The notes beneath the pieces are model-generated. The model was given only the letters and a program-made list of their open reading frames with translations, had not been told where the DNA came from and searched no databases. DNA of 64,000 nt from Natrinema sp. SYSU A 869 (GTDB lineage Archaea; Halobacteriota; Halobacteria; Halobacteriales; Natrialbaceae). The translations under genes and the position numbers were made by a program. Positions 5,196 through 61,003 of this stretch are shown here, piece after piece. The stretch spans positions 2,046,001 through 2,110,000 of the forward strand of contig NZ_CP082249.1 of assembly GCF_019879105.1 (NCBI RefSeq), read 5' to 3'. Position 1 is the stretch's first letter. The number at the start of each line of letters is the position of its first letter.

Positions 5196-5679
5196 CAGAA
5201 AATGGTCTGACAGTCTCTTGTCGAAGAACTGCTCGTGACTTCGTGCTCAGTTCAGGGGTGCTCTGTGTCGCTTAGACTGACCAGCCGGTATGCAGTGGCG
5301 CGCTGTCGGCCAGCCGAGTGCTAGTGAGGGGAGCCGACACTATTGCGTGAGGTCTTCGTGAACGCAGTGAACGAAGGCGTGGAAGACACGAAGCGACTTC
5401 CTGTGGATGAGCGAACGAACCCAGTGAGTGAGCGGTAGCGCGGAACCTTCGGTTCCGAGAACCATGCGAACGGGCGCTACACGCCCGTGAGCAGAAATCG
5501 GCTGGGGAGGGCGAGGCGATTCCTGTTGCCACGATAGCAGGACACTTTCTCGTTCCCATCAAAATCCACCACTTCATTCACTCATTCACAATTCACATCG
5601 AACGAACTGGTTCCAGAACCCTCTCGAGAACCGTTACTACTCACCGAGCCTCCAAGAAACCGAGAAACCGCGGGAACCG
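5196..5679. other. Intergenic region rich in short hairpins, no convincing gene
   Basis: About 480 bp between convergent genes. It holds a series of GC-rich palindromes, notably CGGAACC-TTC-GGTTCCG at 5441-5457 and ACGGGCG-CTACA-CGCCCGT at 5470-5488. An open frame on the minus strand (5272-5577) is Arg/Ser-rich and not acidic, unlike real genes here, so I do not call it. Confidence 0.7.
5441..5488. repeat. Double-hairpin repeat with ACCATG spacer, copy 1
   Basis: Stem CGGAACC/GGTTCCG (5441-5447/5451-5457) is followed by the spacer GAGAACCATGCGA and a second stem ACGGGCG/CGCCCGT (5470-5476/5482-5488). The hairpin-ACCATG-hairpin plan recurs at 52949-53001 and 60789-60836 with different stem sequences. 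Confidence 0.7.
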
Positions 5680-7650: not shown

Positions 7651-7800
7651 ATGGCGTTCAACCCTGGCTGCGTCACGACGGTTACCGTCGACTCCGACAG
7701 CACGCTCGTCGATGGCGATGCGACCGCAGCCGTGCTCACCGACCACGCGGACGTCAACAACCCCGCGCTGGCGGATCGACTGAGCTGGTGTTCGGTCATG
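7651..7800 (+). pseudogene. Possible 5' remnant of an unknown gene
   Basis: From ATG 7651 about 50 codons (MAFNPGCVTTVTVDSDSTLV...) have high GC at third positions and an acidic composition like real genes here. The reading then runs into the antisense of the acetyltransferase gene and becomes Arg/Pro-rich. This looks like the beginning of a gene whose remainder has been lost. I do not recognise the family; chance is not excluded. Confidence 0.35.
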
Positions 7801-8497
7801 ACAGGTCCAGCGAATCCACACCCGTTCGGACCAGAGACTCCCAGTCCTCGTCCTCGCGTACGGCCGGGAACGGGCGCGGACGCTCGGGCGTCTCCGATTT
7901 CTCGGCGAGGGGCCGTCGCCACCAGGCCACGTCCTGCCACTCGTCTTGCGTGTAGCCGATCGCCGGAAAGTCGACTAGCCGTTCGAACCCCATCCGCTCG
8001 TGAAACCGCTCGGTTTCGGGGTTGGGGACCGTCGTTACGGCATATGCGTCGCGGATCCCTTGCCGCTCGAGAACGGCGAATAGCGACTCGTAGAGCGCCT
8101 GTCCCACTCCCACCCGGCGAGCCGAGTCGGCGACGTAGACCGAGAGTTCGACGACCCACTCGTAGGCTCGGCGCTTGCGCAGCGGCCCCGCGTAGGCGTA
8201 GCCGACAACCTCGCCGTCGCCGGGCTGCGTCCGGCTGCTCGCGGAGTCTTGGAAGCTTTCGTCTTCTACTGGTCGAGAACTCGCCGAGTTCCCTCGACTT
8301 TGCTCCGCGTTGTCGACCTCGCAGACGAGCCACGGATGGTGCTCGAGGGTCGACTCGATCCGGTCGACCAGCTCGGCCTCAGCGGGGACAGTTTCCTCGA
8401 AGGTGACCGCCGTCGACTCGCAGAAGGGCGCGTAGATGTCGCGAACGGCGGCCGCGTCCACCGGAGTCGCGACCCGAATTCGAGCGTCGGTTTCCAT
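7796..8497 (-). CDS. GNAT N-acetyltransferase, phosphinothricin-acetyltransferase-like
   Basis: A 233-residue GNAT enzyme. The N-terminus RIRVATPVDAAAVRDIYAPF and the TVTFEETVP-like FCESTAVTFEETVP segment are typical of the Pat/Bar/MnaT group. The acetyl-CoA loop is ARRVGVGQALYESLF, and TVPNPETERFHERMGFER is the classic C-terminal motif. Residues about 64-97 (NAEQSRGNSASSRPVEDESF and on) are a low-complexity insert that homologues lack; its DNA contains CGCGGAG...CTCCGCG inverted repeats (8240-8246 and 8303-8309). A hydrophilic tail of about 35 residues follows the domain. Substrate unknown. Start at ATG 8497 (METDARIRV). Confidence 0.88.
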   Translation of the reverse strand: METDARIRVATPVDAAAVRDIYAPFCESTAVTFEETVPAEAELVDRIESTLEHHPWLVCEVDNAEQSRGNSASSRPVEDESFQDSASSRTQPGDGEVVGYAYAGPLRKRRAYEWVVELSVYVADSARRVGVGQALYESLFAVLERQGIRDAYAVTTVPNPETERFHERMGFERLVDFPAIGYTQDEWQDVAWWRRPLAEKSETPERPRPFPAVREDEDWESLVRTGVDSLDLS

Positions 8498-20953: not shown

Positions 20954-21568
20954 TCACTCGAGCGGGAACGACTCGACCGTCGAGTAAACTGGTCCCGCGT
21001 CCGTGAGGGTGCTCTCGGTCAGGCGAACCGCCTCGACGCGGGTTTCGCCGACGGTCGGGTCGCGTTCCCGAACGAGGTTCTGGACCAGTTCCTTTCCGCC
21101 AGCATGTTCCATCCGCGCGAGCGTGACGTGCGGGGTAAAGTCGTGATCCTCGGCGTCGAACCCCATCGCAGTCGTGCGGTCCTCAATCGCTTCGTGAAGA
21201 CGGGTGAGTTCCTCGCCGCCCGCCTCGACGCCCAGCCAGACGACGCTGATGTAGTCGAGGTTCGGGAAGACTCCCAATCCGCCGTAGCGGACCGTGAAGG
21301 GGTCGACATCGGCGTCGTCGACCGCGGCTGACAGTTCCCGCTCGAGGGTAGGCAGTCGGTCCTCGTCGACGTCATCAGAATCGCTTTGCGGTTCTGATTG
21401 GCTCGAAAGAGCAAAGCTCTTTCGAACGTCACCGAGGAACTTCATCGTGATGTGAGCCTGTTCCGGATCCGTGACGTTGAGCCCGCTCGCCTCGGCGAGT
21501 TCGTCTTGCAGGTCGGCGACCGGCTCGGTGAGGTCGTCGGGGAGGTCGACGCTGACGAACAGTCGCAT
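20954..21568 (-). CDS. thpR: RNA 2',3'-cyclic phosphodiesterase ThpR (LigT family)
   Basis: A 204-residue 2H phosphoesterase. The two catalytic HxTx motifs are HITMKFLGDV (from His39) and PHVTLARM near residue 150, and the start MRLFVSVDLPDDL is characteristic. It opens 2',3'-cyclic phosphates on RNA ends to 2'-phosphates. Residues about 49-70 (KSFALSSQSEPQSDSDDVDE) are an in-frame insert absent from typical homologues, encoded by DNA with the palindromes TCAGAA...TTCTGA and CGAAAGAG...CTCTTTCG near 21375-21425. Start at ATG 21568. It stands alone, divergent from the oxidoreductase gene at 21701. Confidence 0.92.
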   Translation of the reverse strand: MRLFVSVDLPDDLTEPVADLQDELAEASGLNVTDPEQAHITMKFLGDVRKSFALSSQSEPQSDSDDVDEDRLPTLERELSAAVDDADVDPFTVRYGGLGVFPNLDYISVVWLGVEAGGEELTRLHEAIEDRTTAMGFDAEDHDFTPHVTLARMEHAGGKELVQNLVRERDPTVGETRVEAVRLTESTLTDAGPVYSTVESFPLE

Positions 21569-30491: not shown

Positions 30492-30570
30492 TCTGCGCAC
30501 GGGCGCATAGCGCTCGTGTGCACGGTCCGCGGGACCTCCGGTCCCGCGCTATTTTCGCGAGCGAACGCAG

Positions 30571-48794: not shown

Positions 48795-49448
48795 TCACTC
48801 CCAGGGGTGGGTCCCGCGCTCGCTGGGCCAGAGCGGATACCAGTACTCCTTCTCGCGCTCGATCTCGAGTTCGCCGTCCAGCGCCGACTCGAGGGTGAAC
48901 TCCGCGCTCGAGTCGCGTTCCCGACCGGACCGGGGAACGAACGGGTAGAACCGGCCGCGACGGAAGGAGTAGATCCAGTAGGCCGTTTCGTCCATGTCGG
49001 CGGTTCCACCGCCTCCGTTCCGATGCCGCGAAGCGGCATCGCTGTCCTCGTAGGCGAAGACCGCCGCGAGCAGGCGCGAGCCGTAGCCGTGCTCGATGAA
49101 GGTGTCCGCGGCGAAGTGCATGCTCGTGATCAGATCCTCGGGGTCGTCGTCCTCGAGGATGACCCAGTGATAGCCATGATCGTCCGATGTGACCGAAAAT
49201 CCGGTGCCGGTCTCTTCCTGGCCGGCCTCGAGGATCGCTTCGACCTCGTCGACGGCGTCACGGAAGTCGCTCGAGTCGACGCCGGAAAAGCAGAGCGCGC
49301 CGACGTCCAGCGACTCATAGCCCAGATCGGCCTGCATCGTGAGGTAGGCGGTGCTCATCCCGAAGAGGTCGTCGGGGTCGGCGTCGCGTCCGGCGTCGGC
49401 CTCGGCGCGCGATCCGAGGATGGCGCGGAGTCCGTCCAGCAGTCCCAT
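48795..49448 (-). CDS. pspAB: PspA-associated protein PspAB
   Basis: A 217-residue protein. MGLLDGLRAILGSRAEADAG with the following DADPDDLFGMSTAYLTMQAD is the hallmark of this family, which neighbours PspA-type proteins or HtpX in haloarchaea and actinobacteria. Other conserved pieces are ALCFSGVDSSDF, HGYHWVILEDDDPEDLITSM and HFAADTFIEHGYGSRLLAAV. Residues about 137-150 (SDAASRHRNGGGGTADM) are an insert with the DNA palindrome GATGCCGC-GAA-GCGGCATC. It lies 24 bp after htpX on the same strand, the usual pairing, so it likely acts with that protease in membrane-stress response. Biochemical role unknown. Confidence 0.9.
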   Translation of the reverse strand: MGLLDGLRAILGSRAEADAGRDADPDDLFGMSTAYLTMQADLGYESLDVGALCFSGVDSSDFRDAVDEVEAILEAGQEETGTGFSVTSDDHGYHWVILEDDDPEDLITSMHFAADTFIEHGYGSRLLAAVFAYEDSDAASRHRNGGGGTADMDETAYWIYSFRRGRFYPFVPRSGRERDSSAEFTLESALDGELEIEREKEYWYPLWPSERGTHPWE

Positions 49449-52733: not shown

Positions 52734-54021
52734 CGAGGACGCGACCGGTGGAGACGCGGCTGACGAGGACGCAACGGACCAGTCGGCGTCCGACGACACC
52801 CTCGAACGGACGGTCGACGAGGTCCTCGAACCCGCGGTAGCGGACGCGCCCCTCGCAGCGATCGTTGAGAAGCCGCGCGCAGAGACGGCCATCGAGTCGC
52901 TGCGCGCCGAGGGAGTCTACGATGATTCGCGGCGCGTGCGCGAGGCGCGAGGGCGAAGCGGAGCAAAGCCCTCAGACCATGCGAACGGGTCTTCGACCCG
53001 TGAGGACGGACCCGACGGGGTCGCGCTGCCGATCACGGAACCGCCGACCGAGACCGCGGTGCTCGAGGTCGTCAAGCAACTCGAGCCCGAGCCCCGAACC
53101 CCGGATCTCGAGGCGCTACTGGCCGACCGGGGCTGGCACGACGATGCTCTCGAGTCGGTTCCGGGCTCGTGGGCGGTGATCGGCTCGGTGATCCTCGTGA
53201 CGGTCCCCGAGGGCTGTCCCGACGAGGGCGAGTTGGGCGAGGCCCTGCTCGAACTCCACGGCGAAGCTGACAGCGTGCTGGCCGACGAGGGAATCGCGAA
53301 CGACGGCGCGTCCGGCACCTATCGCGAACCACGCACTCGCCTGATCGCCGGGGACGACGACACGGAGACGGTTCATACCGAGCACGGAACCCGATACGGG
53401 CTGGATCCCGCGACGGTAATGTTCTCGCCCGGGAATCAGGCTGAGCGCGCCCGAATGGGCGAGGTCGTGTCCGCGGATCATAGATCTGCGGACGGATCGC
53501 CGCGAGACGCCGACGAACGCGTGTTTGACATGTTCGCCGGTATCGGCTACTTCACCCTCCCGATGGCCCGGGCCGGCGCGCAGGTGACGGCGACCGAGAT
53601 CAACCCGACCGCCTTTCGGTACCTGCTCGAGAACGCGATGCTCAACGACGTCGATGATCGGGTCGACGCGTACATGACCGACTGCCGCGACCTCGCGAGC
53701 GAGATCGAGGCCGATCGGGTCGTCATGGGCTACTACGGGAGCGCGGACGGTACCAGCGAGAGCGACGAGGAGACAGCACACGGAACCCGAACCGACGAGG
53801 CACATGACTTCCTCGAGGATGCCCTCGCGGCGCTCGTCCCCGGCGGTGTCGTCCACTACCACGAGGCGACCCCCGAAGCGCGGCTGTGGGAGCGGCCGCT
53901 CGAGCGCCTCGAGACAGCCGCCGCCGCGGCAGACCGAGAGCTCGAGGTCCTCGAGAAGCGACGGGTGAAGAGCCATAGCGCGGGCGTCGCACACGTCGTC
54001 GTCGACGCGCGATTCGAGTAA
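52726..54021 (+). CDS. tRNA wyosine-pathway methyltransferase-fold enzyme (Taw2/TYW2-like; Trm5 family)
   Basis: A 431-residue protein. The SAM-type Rossmann motif is FDMFAGIGYFTLPMARAGAQ, followed by TEINPTAFRYLLENAMLNDV and then VVMGYYGSADG. Trm5 carries NLP/NPP in that last place, whereas TYW2/Taw2 proteins have a G-Y type loop, so I favour the aminocarboxypropyltransferase that modifies tRNA-Phe G37 after Trm5. Residues about 70-100 (RVREARGRSGAKPSDHANGS) are a low-complexity insert with two DNA hairpins. Start at ATG 52726 overlapping nmd3 by 8 bp; GTG 52723 would add one residue. Confidence 0.82.
   Translation: MTDEDATGGDAADEDATDQSASDDTLERTVDEVLEPAVADAPLAAIVEKPRAETAIESLRAEGVYDDSRRVREARGRSGAKPSDHANGSSTREDGPDGVALPITEPPTETAVLEVVKQLEPEPRTPDLEALLADRGWHDDALESVPGSWAVIGSVILVTVPEGCPDEGELGEALLELHGEADSVLADEGIANDGASGTYREPRTRLIAGDDDTETVHTEHGTRYGLDPATVMFSPGNQAERARMGEVVSADHRSADGSPRDADERVFDMFAGIGYFTLPMARAGAQVTATEINPTAFRYLLENAMLNDVDDRVDAYMTDCRDLASEIEADRVVMGYYGSADGTSESDEETAHGTRTDEAHDFLEDALAALVPGGVVHYHEATPEARLWERPLERLETAAAAADRELEVLEKRRVKSHSAGVAHVVVDARFE
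52949..53001. repeat. Double-hairpin repeat with ACCATG spacer, copy 2, inside a gene
   Basis: Stem GAGGGC/GCCCTC (52949-52954/52968-52973), spacer with ACCATGCG, and stem ACGGGT/ACCCGT (52985-52990/52996-53001). The plan equals 5441-5488 and 60789-60836. Here it is translated as a disordered insert in the Taw2-like protein, staying in frame. Confidence 0.7.
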
Positions 54022-57014: not shown

Positions 57015-58130
57015 ATGGAGGTGAACTGTGAGGGCTGTGCCGGCTGTTGTATGGATTGGCGACCACTCCTCGAGGACGGCACGGCGGCAACCGCTGCCCG
57101 AGACGGCGGCGACGGGGGCGAAACCGAGCACGACACTGACCGTCGACGCCAGCGACCGCGCGATACGTTCGACGGGGGCGGAACCAAACAGGAAGCCACT
57201 CGAGCGCCGCTCGACGACGATACTACCTTCGTCCCGCTGACCCGCGATGAGGTGCGAGCGTTCCTCGAGGCGGGAATGGCCGATGCCCTGACGCCGCGGT
57301 TCTGGTACGCCCGCGACGACGAGGAGTCACACACTACGGAGTCCTCGAGCGGTGCGGAGCGCGAACGAGACGAGTGCTCCGCTGCTGCGAGTGGAGAGGA
57401 ACGACCGGCAAGCGGAGACGCTTCGCGAGAGGGTGAGGGCATCGAAATCGACGGCCACACCGTCGCGGCCGTCGCGGGTCGCCCCGTCTTTTTCGTGGGA
57501 CTGCGGAAGCCGCCGAAACCGGTGGCCCCGTTCGGTCGCGAGGACCCGATGTGGCTGCCGACCTGCGTCTTTCTCGACCCGAGGACGCTGCAGTGTCGGA
57601 TCCACGAGAGTGAACTCTACCCAGACGAGTGTAGTGCGTATCCGGAACACAACCTCGCGCTCGAGCAGGAAACCGAGTGCGAGCGCGTCGAAGCGGCGTT
57701 CGGCGGCGAGCGCCTGCTCGAGGCCGATCACGACGATCCGGATGGACTGCTGCTCGGTACGGAGGCGATCGGCGCGAAGCTCTTCTGCCATCCCCGGCCG
57801 GCCGATCTCGAGGGGATCGTCGACCGGGCCGCGGCGGGCGAGCTCACCCGACAGGAGCGCGCCGAGCCTATCGCGGTCGCTGCCGCCTCGAGTCCCGGGA
57901 CGCTGGCGATCTCCGATCACCACTACGAATGGGCGAAAACACGGGTTCTCGAGGGAGCGGATATCGAATCGGATCCCGGGGACGAAAAGTCGTGGGTTGG
58001 CCCGGCGATCCGCGACTGGTACTGGCGCTACCGGGAGACCGGTGAGACGGTCCCGTCACCGGTCGTCGCCGACGCCGTCGAAACGGACCGCGGCGCACCT
58101 GAAACGCCGGGCTGGGACGCCCTCGAGTGA
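57015..58130 (+). CDS. YkgJ-type zinc/iron cysteine-cluster protein
   Basis: A 371-residue protein. The first cluster CEGCAGCCMDW is at residues 4-14, and the second, CVFLDPRTLQCRIHESELYP followed by DECSAYP, lies near 195-220; together these match the CxxCxxCC...C...C...CxxYP pattern of the YkgJ/CxxCxxCC family, thought to hold a Fe-S or zinc site. Residues about 22-65 and 100-150 are low-complexity, the second (SSSGAERERDECSAAASGEE and on) being a hairpin-type in-frame insert. Start at ATG 57015 (MEVNCEGCAGCC). No operon. Function not established. Confidence 0.85.
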   Translation: MEVNCEGCAGCCMDWRPLLEDGTAATAARDGGDGGETEHDTDRRRQRPRDTFDGGGTKQEATRAPLDDDTTFVPLTRDEVRAFLEAGMADALTPRFWYARDDEESHTTESSSGAERERDECSAAASGEERPASGDASREGEGIEIDGHTVAAVAGRPVFFVGLRKPPKPVAPFGREDPMWLPTCVFLDPRTLQCRIHESELYPDECSAYPEHNLALEQETECERVEAAFGGERLLEADHDDPDGLLLGTEAIGAKLFCHPRPADLEGIVDRAAAGELTRQERAEPIAVAAASSPGTLAISDHHYEWAKTRVLEGADIESDPGDEKSWVGPAIRDWYWRYRETGETVPSPVVADAVETDRGAPETPGWDALE

Positions 58131-60760: not shown

Positions 60761-60788
60761 AACCAACCTTTTGCTCTCTCGTGATGAC

Positions 60789-60836
60789 GAGACGCTGAAG
60801 GCGTCTCGAACCATGTGCGGTCGCGAAGCGACCGCA
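60789..60836. repeat. Double-hairpin repeat with ACCATG spacer, copy 3
   Basis: Stem GAGACGC/GCGTCTC (60789-60795/60801-60807), spacer GAACCATG, stem TGCGGTCGC/GCGACCGCA (60816-60824/60828-60836). It lies just after the alcohol dehydrogenase gene, so it may also help to end or protect its transcript. Confidence 0.7.
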
Positions 60837-61003
60837 CTCGGCAAAACGTTGATGAAAATCACGGCGTCACCCATTCAGCCGCGGCGTTGCCGCGACTTCG
60901 AGGGTACCTTGGCCCGCTCACTCGCTTCGCTCGTTCGCGGGTGCAGTGCTTGACCGGACTGCGGCGGTACGCTCTTCGCCTCTACCGAGTGCAAGCAGTT
61001 GTA

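Follow-up and report, generated by a model that had tools for sequence, protein, structure and literature searches.

In-frame palindromic inserts in conserved genes of Natrinema sp. SYSU A 869 and a short palindromic repeat family dispersed in haloarchaeal chromosomes

Background

Palindromic repeats translated as parts of proteins were previously known mainly from intracellular bacteria and from one report on a methanogen. The Rickettsia palindromic elements (RPEs) of Ogata et al. (2000, 2002; represented here by their citation in PMC2996958 and PMC3767692) are repeats of 100-150 bp in intracellular bacteria, and in-frame RPEs occupy solvent-exposed sites (PMC3767692). Coding palindromic repeats of Methanocaldococcus jannaschii and the Wolbachia palindromic elements (Ogata 2005) are likewise represented only by their citation in PMC2996958.

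The haloarchaeal element described here is much like the "selfish" palindromes of Rickettsia: both are short palindromic repeats found in frame in unrelated housekeeping genes, with orthologues that have the insert and orthologues that lack it. Three criteria of the RPE kind are met, namely in-frame position in unrelated open reading frames (ORFs), the existence of related noncoding copies, and insertion without disruption of the gene. The likeness is claimed in kind only, no RPE sequence having been compared. Unlike RPEs, the haloarchaeal element is 50-75 nt long and GC-rich, extends through a whole class of free-living archaea, consists of small triloop hairpins, uses one frame only and has stems that covary at synonymous sites. 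With the M. jannaschii repeats, as far as these are cited, it shares the presence of coding palindromic repeats in an archaeon, but those are from a single methanogen, and the coding form modelled here (R2, below) was found in Halobacteria only, in a phylum sample that may miss that lineage. The Wolbachia elements, to the same extent, are also protein-coding palindromic repeats, but of a bacterial endosymbiont.

GTAG-tagged REPs and REPINs (PMC3733652, PMC3116915) are similar in being small, often paired hairpins with GTAG at the foot, some of them within genes; the haloarchaeal element differs in that no RAYT was found for it, its arms are highly variable between copies, and its coding copies keep to one frame. 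PARCEL repeats (PMC2996958) are also palindromic sequences that encode repeated protein segments, but they are tandem amphipathic repeats reported to be absent from archaea, whereas the haloarchaeal element forms single inserts in enzymes. Perfect inverted repeats within coding sequence occur as well in the Nematomorpha, an animal group in whose mitochondrial genes they reach 284 bp (PMC6649704). In the literature searched, from which subscription papers were excluded, no description of the haloarchaeal element was found and its peptide strings appeared nowhere. The element is best read as a protein-coding palindromic repeat of the RPE type that occurs class-wide in Haloarchaea and is undescribed in that literature; its lineage, its class-wide reach, its modular architecture of triloop hairpins and its synonymous covariation are new here.

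The DNA studied, hereafter the window, comprises 64,000 nt of Natrinema sp. SYSU A 869 (GCF_019879105.1, NZ_CP082249.1, positions 2,046,001-2,110,000, forward strand; G000:C3:2046001-2110000, G000 being the own genome). The chromosome is 3.9 Mb in size and is accompanied by two other replicons of about 0.88-0.89 Mb each. Insert sites were aligned in a first comparison over 400 kb each of the own genome, of the sister species G002 (about 89.5% identical in DNA to the own genome) and of G021 (84%), and six syntenic relatives were added later. The comparison of the own genome with G002 was limited to 400 kb and did not extend to the whole genome.

Inserts in conserved genes of the window

The five genes concerned, whose identities are as the initial annotation gave them, encode a GNAT acetyltransferase, ThpR (LigT/2'-5' RNA ligase), PspAB (PF22742), a Taw2-like enzyme (TRM5-TYW2) and a YkgJ-type protein (DUF7531/CxxCxxCC). 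Each had been credited with an insert beyond the core of its family, and all five inserts are indeed in frame and missing from most relatives; their coordinates have been corrected (Table 1). The length of every named insert, relative to G002 and further congeners, is a multiple of three. Perfect palindromes, ascribed to most of the inserts, were confirmed in three of the five (ThpR, PspAB and Taw2), GNAT and YkgJ having only interrupted hairpins. Alignment of orthologues revealed gains that are specific to a species or clade, and no sharing throughout the order. The initial annotation had inferred a process that seeds palindromes within genes while keeping the frame; because the gains are species- or clade-specific, the order-wide inserts that would have refuted this inference are not met, and such gains, always a multiple of three, support it. 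For the keeping of the frame, selection acting once an insert is in place is a better explanation than a frame-aware mechanism. By the alignments, the inserts in the window genes are mostly recent. Among gene-internal indels of at least 12 bp between the own genome and G002 over 400 kb, 18 of 20 are multiples of three, a figure partly built in, as the frame test used there favours open frames; several gene-internal indels of 45-64 bp in this comparison are plain double hairpins.

Table 1 Repeats and inserts of the window, with the positions given for the inserts by the initial annotation
Feature	Position	Strand	Initial annotation	Description
Type I noncoding dispersed repeat	5405..5547	+		91% identical to consensus; module inside
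Noncoding double-hairpin module	5439..5491	+		R1 63.2 bits, E 1.5e-11
GNAT insert	8220..8315	-	8240-8309	96 bp in frame; gene 7796-8497; peptide NAEQSRGNSASSRPVEDESFQDSASSRTQPGDG; imperfect hairpins
ThpR insert	21368..21424	-	~21375-21425	57 bp in frame; hairpin TCGAAAGAGC-AAA-GCTCTTTCGA, 10-bp arms
Intergenic module copy outside type I repeat	30496..30548	-		R1 52.7 bits, E 2.5e-9
PspAB insert	48994..49047	-	~49023-49045	~48 bp net; hairpins CGATGCCGC-GAA-GCGGCATCG (9-bp arms) and GGCGGT-TCC-ACCGCC
Taw2-like first insert	52948..53004	+	52949-53001	Double-hairpin module copy (SGAKPSDHANGSSTRED); R1 31 bits, E 1e-4
Taw2-like second insert	53463..53514	+		Decayed coding module (VSADHRSADGSPRDADE); R2 match 53472-53509, E 4e-4
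DUF7531/YkgJ-type insert	57318..57428	+	~57340-57430	SSSGAERERDECSAAASGEERPASGDASREGEG; degenerate copy; canonical element at same site in congeners
Weaker intergenic module copy	60788..60838	+		Two GAA-loop hairpins; R1 29.4 bits, E 2e-4

The inserts differ in their relation to the dispersed repeat described below (models R1 and R2). The GNAT insert, bounded by a 4-bp direct repeat, is missing from all 20 congeneric orthologues found and thus far belongs to the own species only. It matched neither R1 nor R2, a scan of the own genome for exact dispersed copies returned nothing beyond short partial matches, and its overlap with the repeat family is confined to GCGGAGCAAAG (peptide AEQS). The ThpR insert, which also contains a second, imperfect hairpin with an AAA loop, is again present in the own species only (missing from 8 relatives); it matched no model and has nothing in common with the family except hairpins. 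Membership of the repeat family has not been shown for either of these inserts, and they may be independent hairpin-rich indels. The PspAB insert has a patchy distribution, being present in the own species, G015 and G027 and missing from six others including the sister G002. In G027 it ends with NRDGGETTGAGE, and because this tail resembles the third hairpin of the coding element, membership of the family is probable.

The first Taw2 insert includes the perfect palindrome ACGGGTC/TTC/GACCCGT (7-bp arms); in this form the insert is shared with G002 only, being absent or different in other relatives. A second insert in the same gene, overlooked in the initial annotation, occupies 52 bp as against 16 bp in G002, and its R2 match reads VSADHRSADGSPRD. 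The Taw2 linker of G027 is a tandem repeat (EDATATRAEGDR; loci L286-L288), and the linker site appears to grow by different means in different species. The DUF7531 insert is common to the own species, G002 and G027, and at the same site the orthologues of L205, N. limicola, N. hispanicum and Haloterrigena sp. H1 carry a canonical or near-canonical element. Of the five genes, Taw2 and DUF7531 at least thus hold recognisable copies of a single dispersed haloarchaeal repeat.

Palindrome excess and the dispersed hairpin module

Arms as long as those of the ThpR and PspAB hairpins occur in 0.1-0.15% of random equal-length in-gene segments (p about 0.001 for ThpR), and the hairpin of the GNAT insert is unremarkable, 14% of random in-gene draws reaching equal arms. 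Over the 400 kb around the window, perfect palindromes with 3-nt loops and arms of at least 8 nt were in clear excess over third-order Markov shuffles (45, against about 16 expected); for other loop lengths the excess was weak or absent. The triloop excess is concentrated in c-GNA-g and c-AAA-g contexts, and where a g-c pair closes such loops the numbers stay at the baseline; 57 of 1365 CGAAG contexts reach 7-bp arms, compared with a baseline of 0.3-0.4%. This is the signature of DNA mini-hairpins such as d(GCGAAGC) (Hirao 1994, as cited in PMC11292364), and it points, by inference, to folding of DNA rather than RNA. In GNA hairpins orthologous between the own genome and G002 the arms were kept (138 of 145 pairs), and 10 of 19 loops were altered, some at all three bases and one into its exact reverse complement, although the numbers are small. 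Plain k-mer over-representation was uninformative, being swamped by codon words.

A hairpin module was recognised by its recurrent spacers (GTTAGCGCGG-hairpin-AACCATGCGAACGGG-hairpin-GAGCAG) and was represented by a covariance model, R1; its coding and noncoding forms are double or triple hairpins of about 50-75 nt. The own genome has 41 R1 matches at E<=0.01, of which 40 are on the main chromosome, though the other two replicons make up 31% of the DNA. The module is present in all 29 congeners, with 2-57 copies in each. The bias of IS200/IS605 elements in the own genome is the opposite, these being concentrated on plasmids. The type I repeat, in which one copy of the module in the window is embedded, is about 145 nt long, recurs roughly ten times in 400 kb, whole or as a fragment and with or without the hairpin module, and has no Rfam match; since many copies lack the module, the module itself looks like the inserted unit. 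No Rfam family scored above its gathering score in the window or in L051, L060 and L064. An origin of the type I repeat from TnpB omega-RNA was ruled out, 20 TnpB loci being without the repeat.

A coding subfamily in the Halobacteria

Four of the weaker R1 matches lie within strongly coding ORFs (UvrC, two AMP-binding enzymes and a phosphohexomutase) and share one common peptide. The DNA pattern GCGGAN{4,9}TCCGCGGACCRNTCG gave 10 matches in 7 of the 29 congeners, all in coding ORFs and in a single frame, and the reversed control gave none. A second model, R2, was built for the coding form and matched all 29 congeners, as well as 191 of 292 sampled Halobacteria genomes, representing 60 of 77 genera. 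In a phylum-wide sample all 35 positive genomes were Halobacteria, and none of about 240 genomes outside the class was positive. Among 56 loci read, 53 lie in GC3-rich coding ORFs, in the same orientation and frame and with the consensus peptide ASSAERSSADHSSGQSPREDGETAS; the loci were picked by score, and the proportion is not an unbiased coding fraction. Hosts identified by Pfam include UvrC, the alpha subunit of PheRS, class I tRNA synthetases, NAD- and ATP-dependent DNA ligases, MutS, ribonucleotide reductase, CobN, SufB/D, MoeA, a P-type ATPase and an AAA ATPase, among others. On independently annotated plasmids the element lies within CobN, a mismatch-repair protein and the mercuric reductase MerA. 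MerA genes with the element were seen in several haloarchaeal genera (plasmids NZ_CP100003, NZ_CP100403, NZ_CP147842, NZ_CP026312, NZ_CP084885), which suggests that horizontal transfer of a gene can bring the element along. The exact pattern was absent from viral contigs, and phages gave no blastn match.

Haloarchaeal proteins favour acidic surface loops. The frame in use is the only acidic one of the six (net charge -3, against 0 to +7), which suits such proteins, and filtering by selection is therefore inferred. The added peptide, of about 25 residues rich in Ser, Ala, Asp, Glu and Arg, is probably situated in surface loops, a location that is assumed without a structure model. Because some host sites are common to several genera (L175/L178/L182/L225; MerA and an HMG-CoA-synthase-like protein), the element may owe much of its distribution to old copies, to vertical inheritance or to transport together with the host gene, and recent jumps may be few.

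The stems of the coding element covary. Across 48 distinct coding modules, a Glu and a Ser codon covary in their third bases, both of them synonymous positions: A-T occurs in 19 cases and G-C in 22, with A-C once and G-T never (p = 4.5e-11, which is optimistic because the copies are related). Pairing holds in 98.4% of cells over 45 gapless modules, and both partners are altered in 7 of 14 pairs (38 cells); neither the 500 shuffles nor the six slides came near these values. The covariation counts include related copies. As the stems covary at synonymous sites, the coding repeat is kept as a nucleic-acid structure beyond the peptide, its hairpins being held perfect either by selection or by copying of the arms.

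Origin and spread of the inserts

We consider it likely that the inserts are members of a short palindromic repeat family scattered over haloarchaeal chromosomes, or else products of the process that generates this family. Ordinary length turnover in disordered loops, through local and independent slippage or template-switch hairpin indels with no shared element, would suit the GNAT and ThpR inserts, which are species-specific and without a family match, as well as the frequent 4-6 bp direct repeats at clean inserts and a regional excess made up of GNA triloops with varied arms; it leaves unexplained why dozens of unrelated genes contain one and the same sequence of 50-75 nt, with its peptide, and seems unlikely. 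The peptide might instead be functional in itself, serving as an acidic, Ser-rich linker or as a site of modification, and the palindromes would then be a by-product of its codons; in support of this, its sequence is well conserved from family to family and is read in the single acidic frame, in proteins that generally favour acidic surface loops. We judge this quite unlikely, as it does not agree with stems that covary at synonymous positions, with noncoding copies of a related module, with host proteins that have no common function, or with the state of UvrC. At one site in UvrC the insert or a decayed form of it is found in six species, the own included, the other congeners having an uninterrupted sequence of the RDPDESATVFGP type (22 read, one not parsed), and insert-free UvrC is the majority among 28 congeners. 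Old linkers inherited throughout the order, the null reading entertained in the initial annotation itself, could account for host sites common to several genera (as in MerA), but they are refuted for GNAT and ThpR, whose inserts are in the own species only, and for PspAB and UvrC, whose inserts are patchy within the genus; this reading is very improbable.

Movement of a REP/RAYT- or MITE-type element by a transposase acting in trans was considered in view of GTAG, the tag of GTAG-REPs (PMC3733652), which stands at the 5' foot of the first hairpin in most coding copies (the upstream sequence reads ..AGTAG-CGCGG). A search of the own genome found no solo Y1 (RAYT) transposase: all seven Y1 genes (PF01797) adjoin TnpB genes and hence belong to IS200/IS605, and the modules avoid the plasmids on which Y1 transposases are concentrated. 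Clean module insertions have end matches of 0-6 bp, but neither terminal inverted repeats nor a target duplication of fixed length, so that the MITE criterion is failed, and no dedicated transposase was found for the element; we regard such movement as improbable. Clean gene insertions often have direct repeats of 4-6 bp at their ends, of variable length, and microhomology therefore fits better than a transposase footprint.

In the preferred reading, a dispersed repeat family, the module consists of two to four perfect hairpins separated by conserved spacers of 5-12 nt; their loops have three bases and are often of the c-GNA-g type, which is exceptionally stable in DNA. Its copies comprise those in intergenic repeats and a coding subfamily within conserved enzymes, always in one orientation and frame. 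The repeat is dispersed and polymorphic, and lies in frame in unrelated genes; its spread by copying is inferred from this distribution, no movement having been observed and no enzyme identified. Spread might proceed by copying of DNA hairpins through fold-back or template-switch synthesis at breaks, with capture of ends by short matches and no enzyme of its own; template switching might also re-perfect the arms, and selection would retain only insertions in the single acidic frame and at tolerant sites. It is possible, though doubtful, that haloarchaea possess in these modules a mobile element without a transposase, replicating via single-stranded DNA mini-hairpins. The c-GNA-g triloops would then form on exposed strands, and fold-back or template-switch synthesis would copy them and re-perfect their arms, which would explain why arms pair perfectly although they are not the same from copy to copy, and why loops are altered or flipped between orthologues; the products, captured at breaks by short matches, would continually supply new in-frame loops to essential enzymes throughout the class.

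A class-wide family in free-living archaea, of which some are genetically tractable, would allow direct tests of spread, of selfishness and of the gain of protein loops, and its synonymous-site covariation is clear evidence of a coding repeat kept as a nucleic-acid structure. The inserts can also mislead gene annotation and the alignment of UvrC, tRNA synthetases, ligases and other markers.

Other dispersed sequences

MITE-like insertions of 80-85 bp that are absent in relatives were noted in G002:C3 (reverse-complement positions 227674 and 248798) and in G021 (C 284696), with terminal inverted repeats TAGTAGCCACTGAAA / TTTCAGTGGCTACTA and TACTGTCGGCTGTAA / TTACAGCCGACAGTA. A second dispersed multi-hairpin element is located at G000:C3:2135776-2136021 (L051:4776-5021), with copies in G002 and G021 and the layout GGAGGAGTGCTTTT...TTTTGCCGAG-hairpins-CAGAGCAAAA. 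Several of its copies end about 10 nt or less from a stop codon on the opposite strand, which gives it the look of a terminator or 3'-UTR structure whose hairpin arrays can expand (about seven consecutive hairpins in G002).
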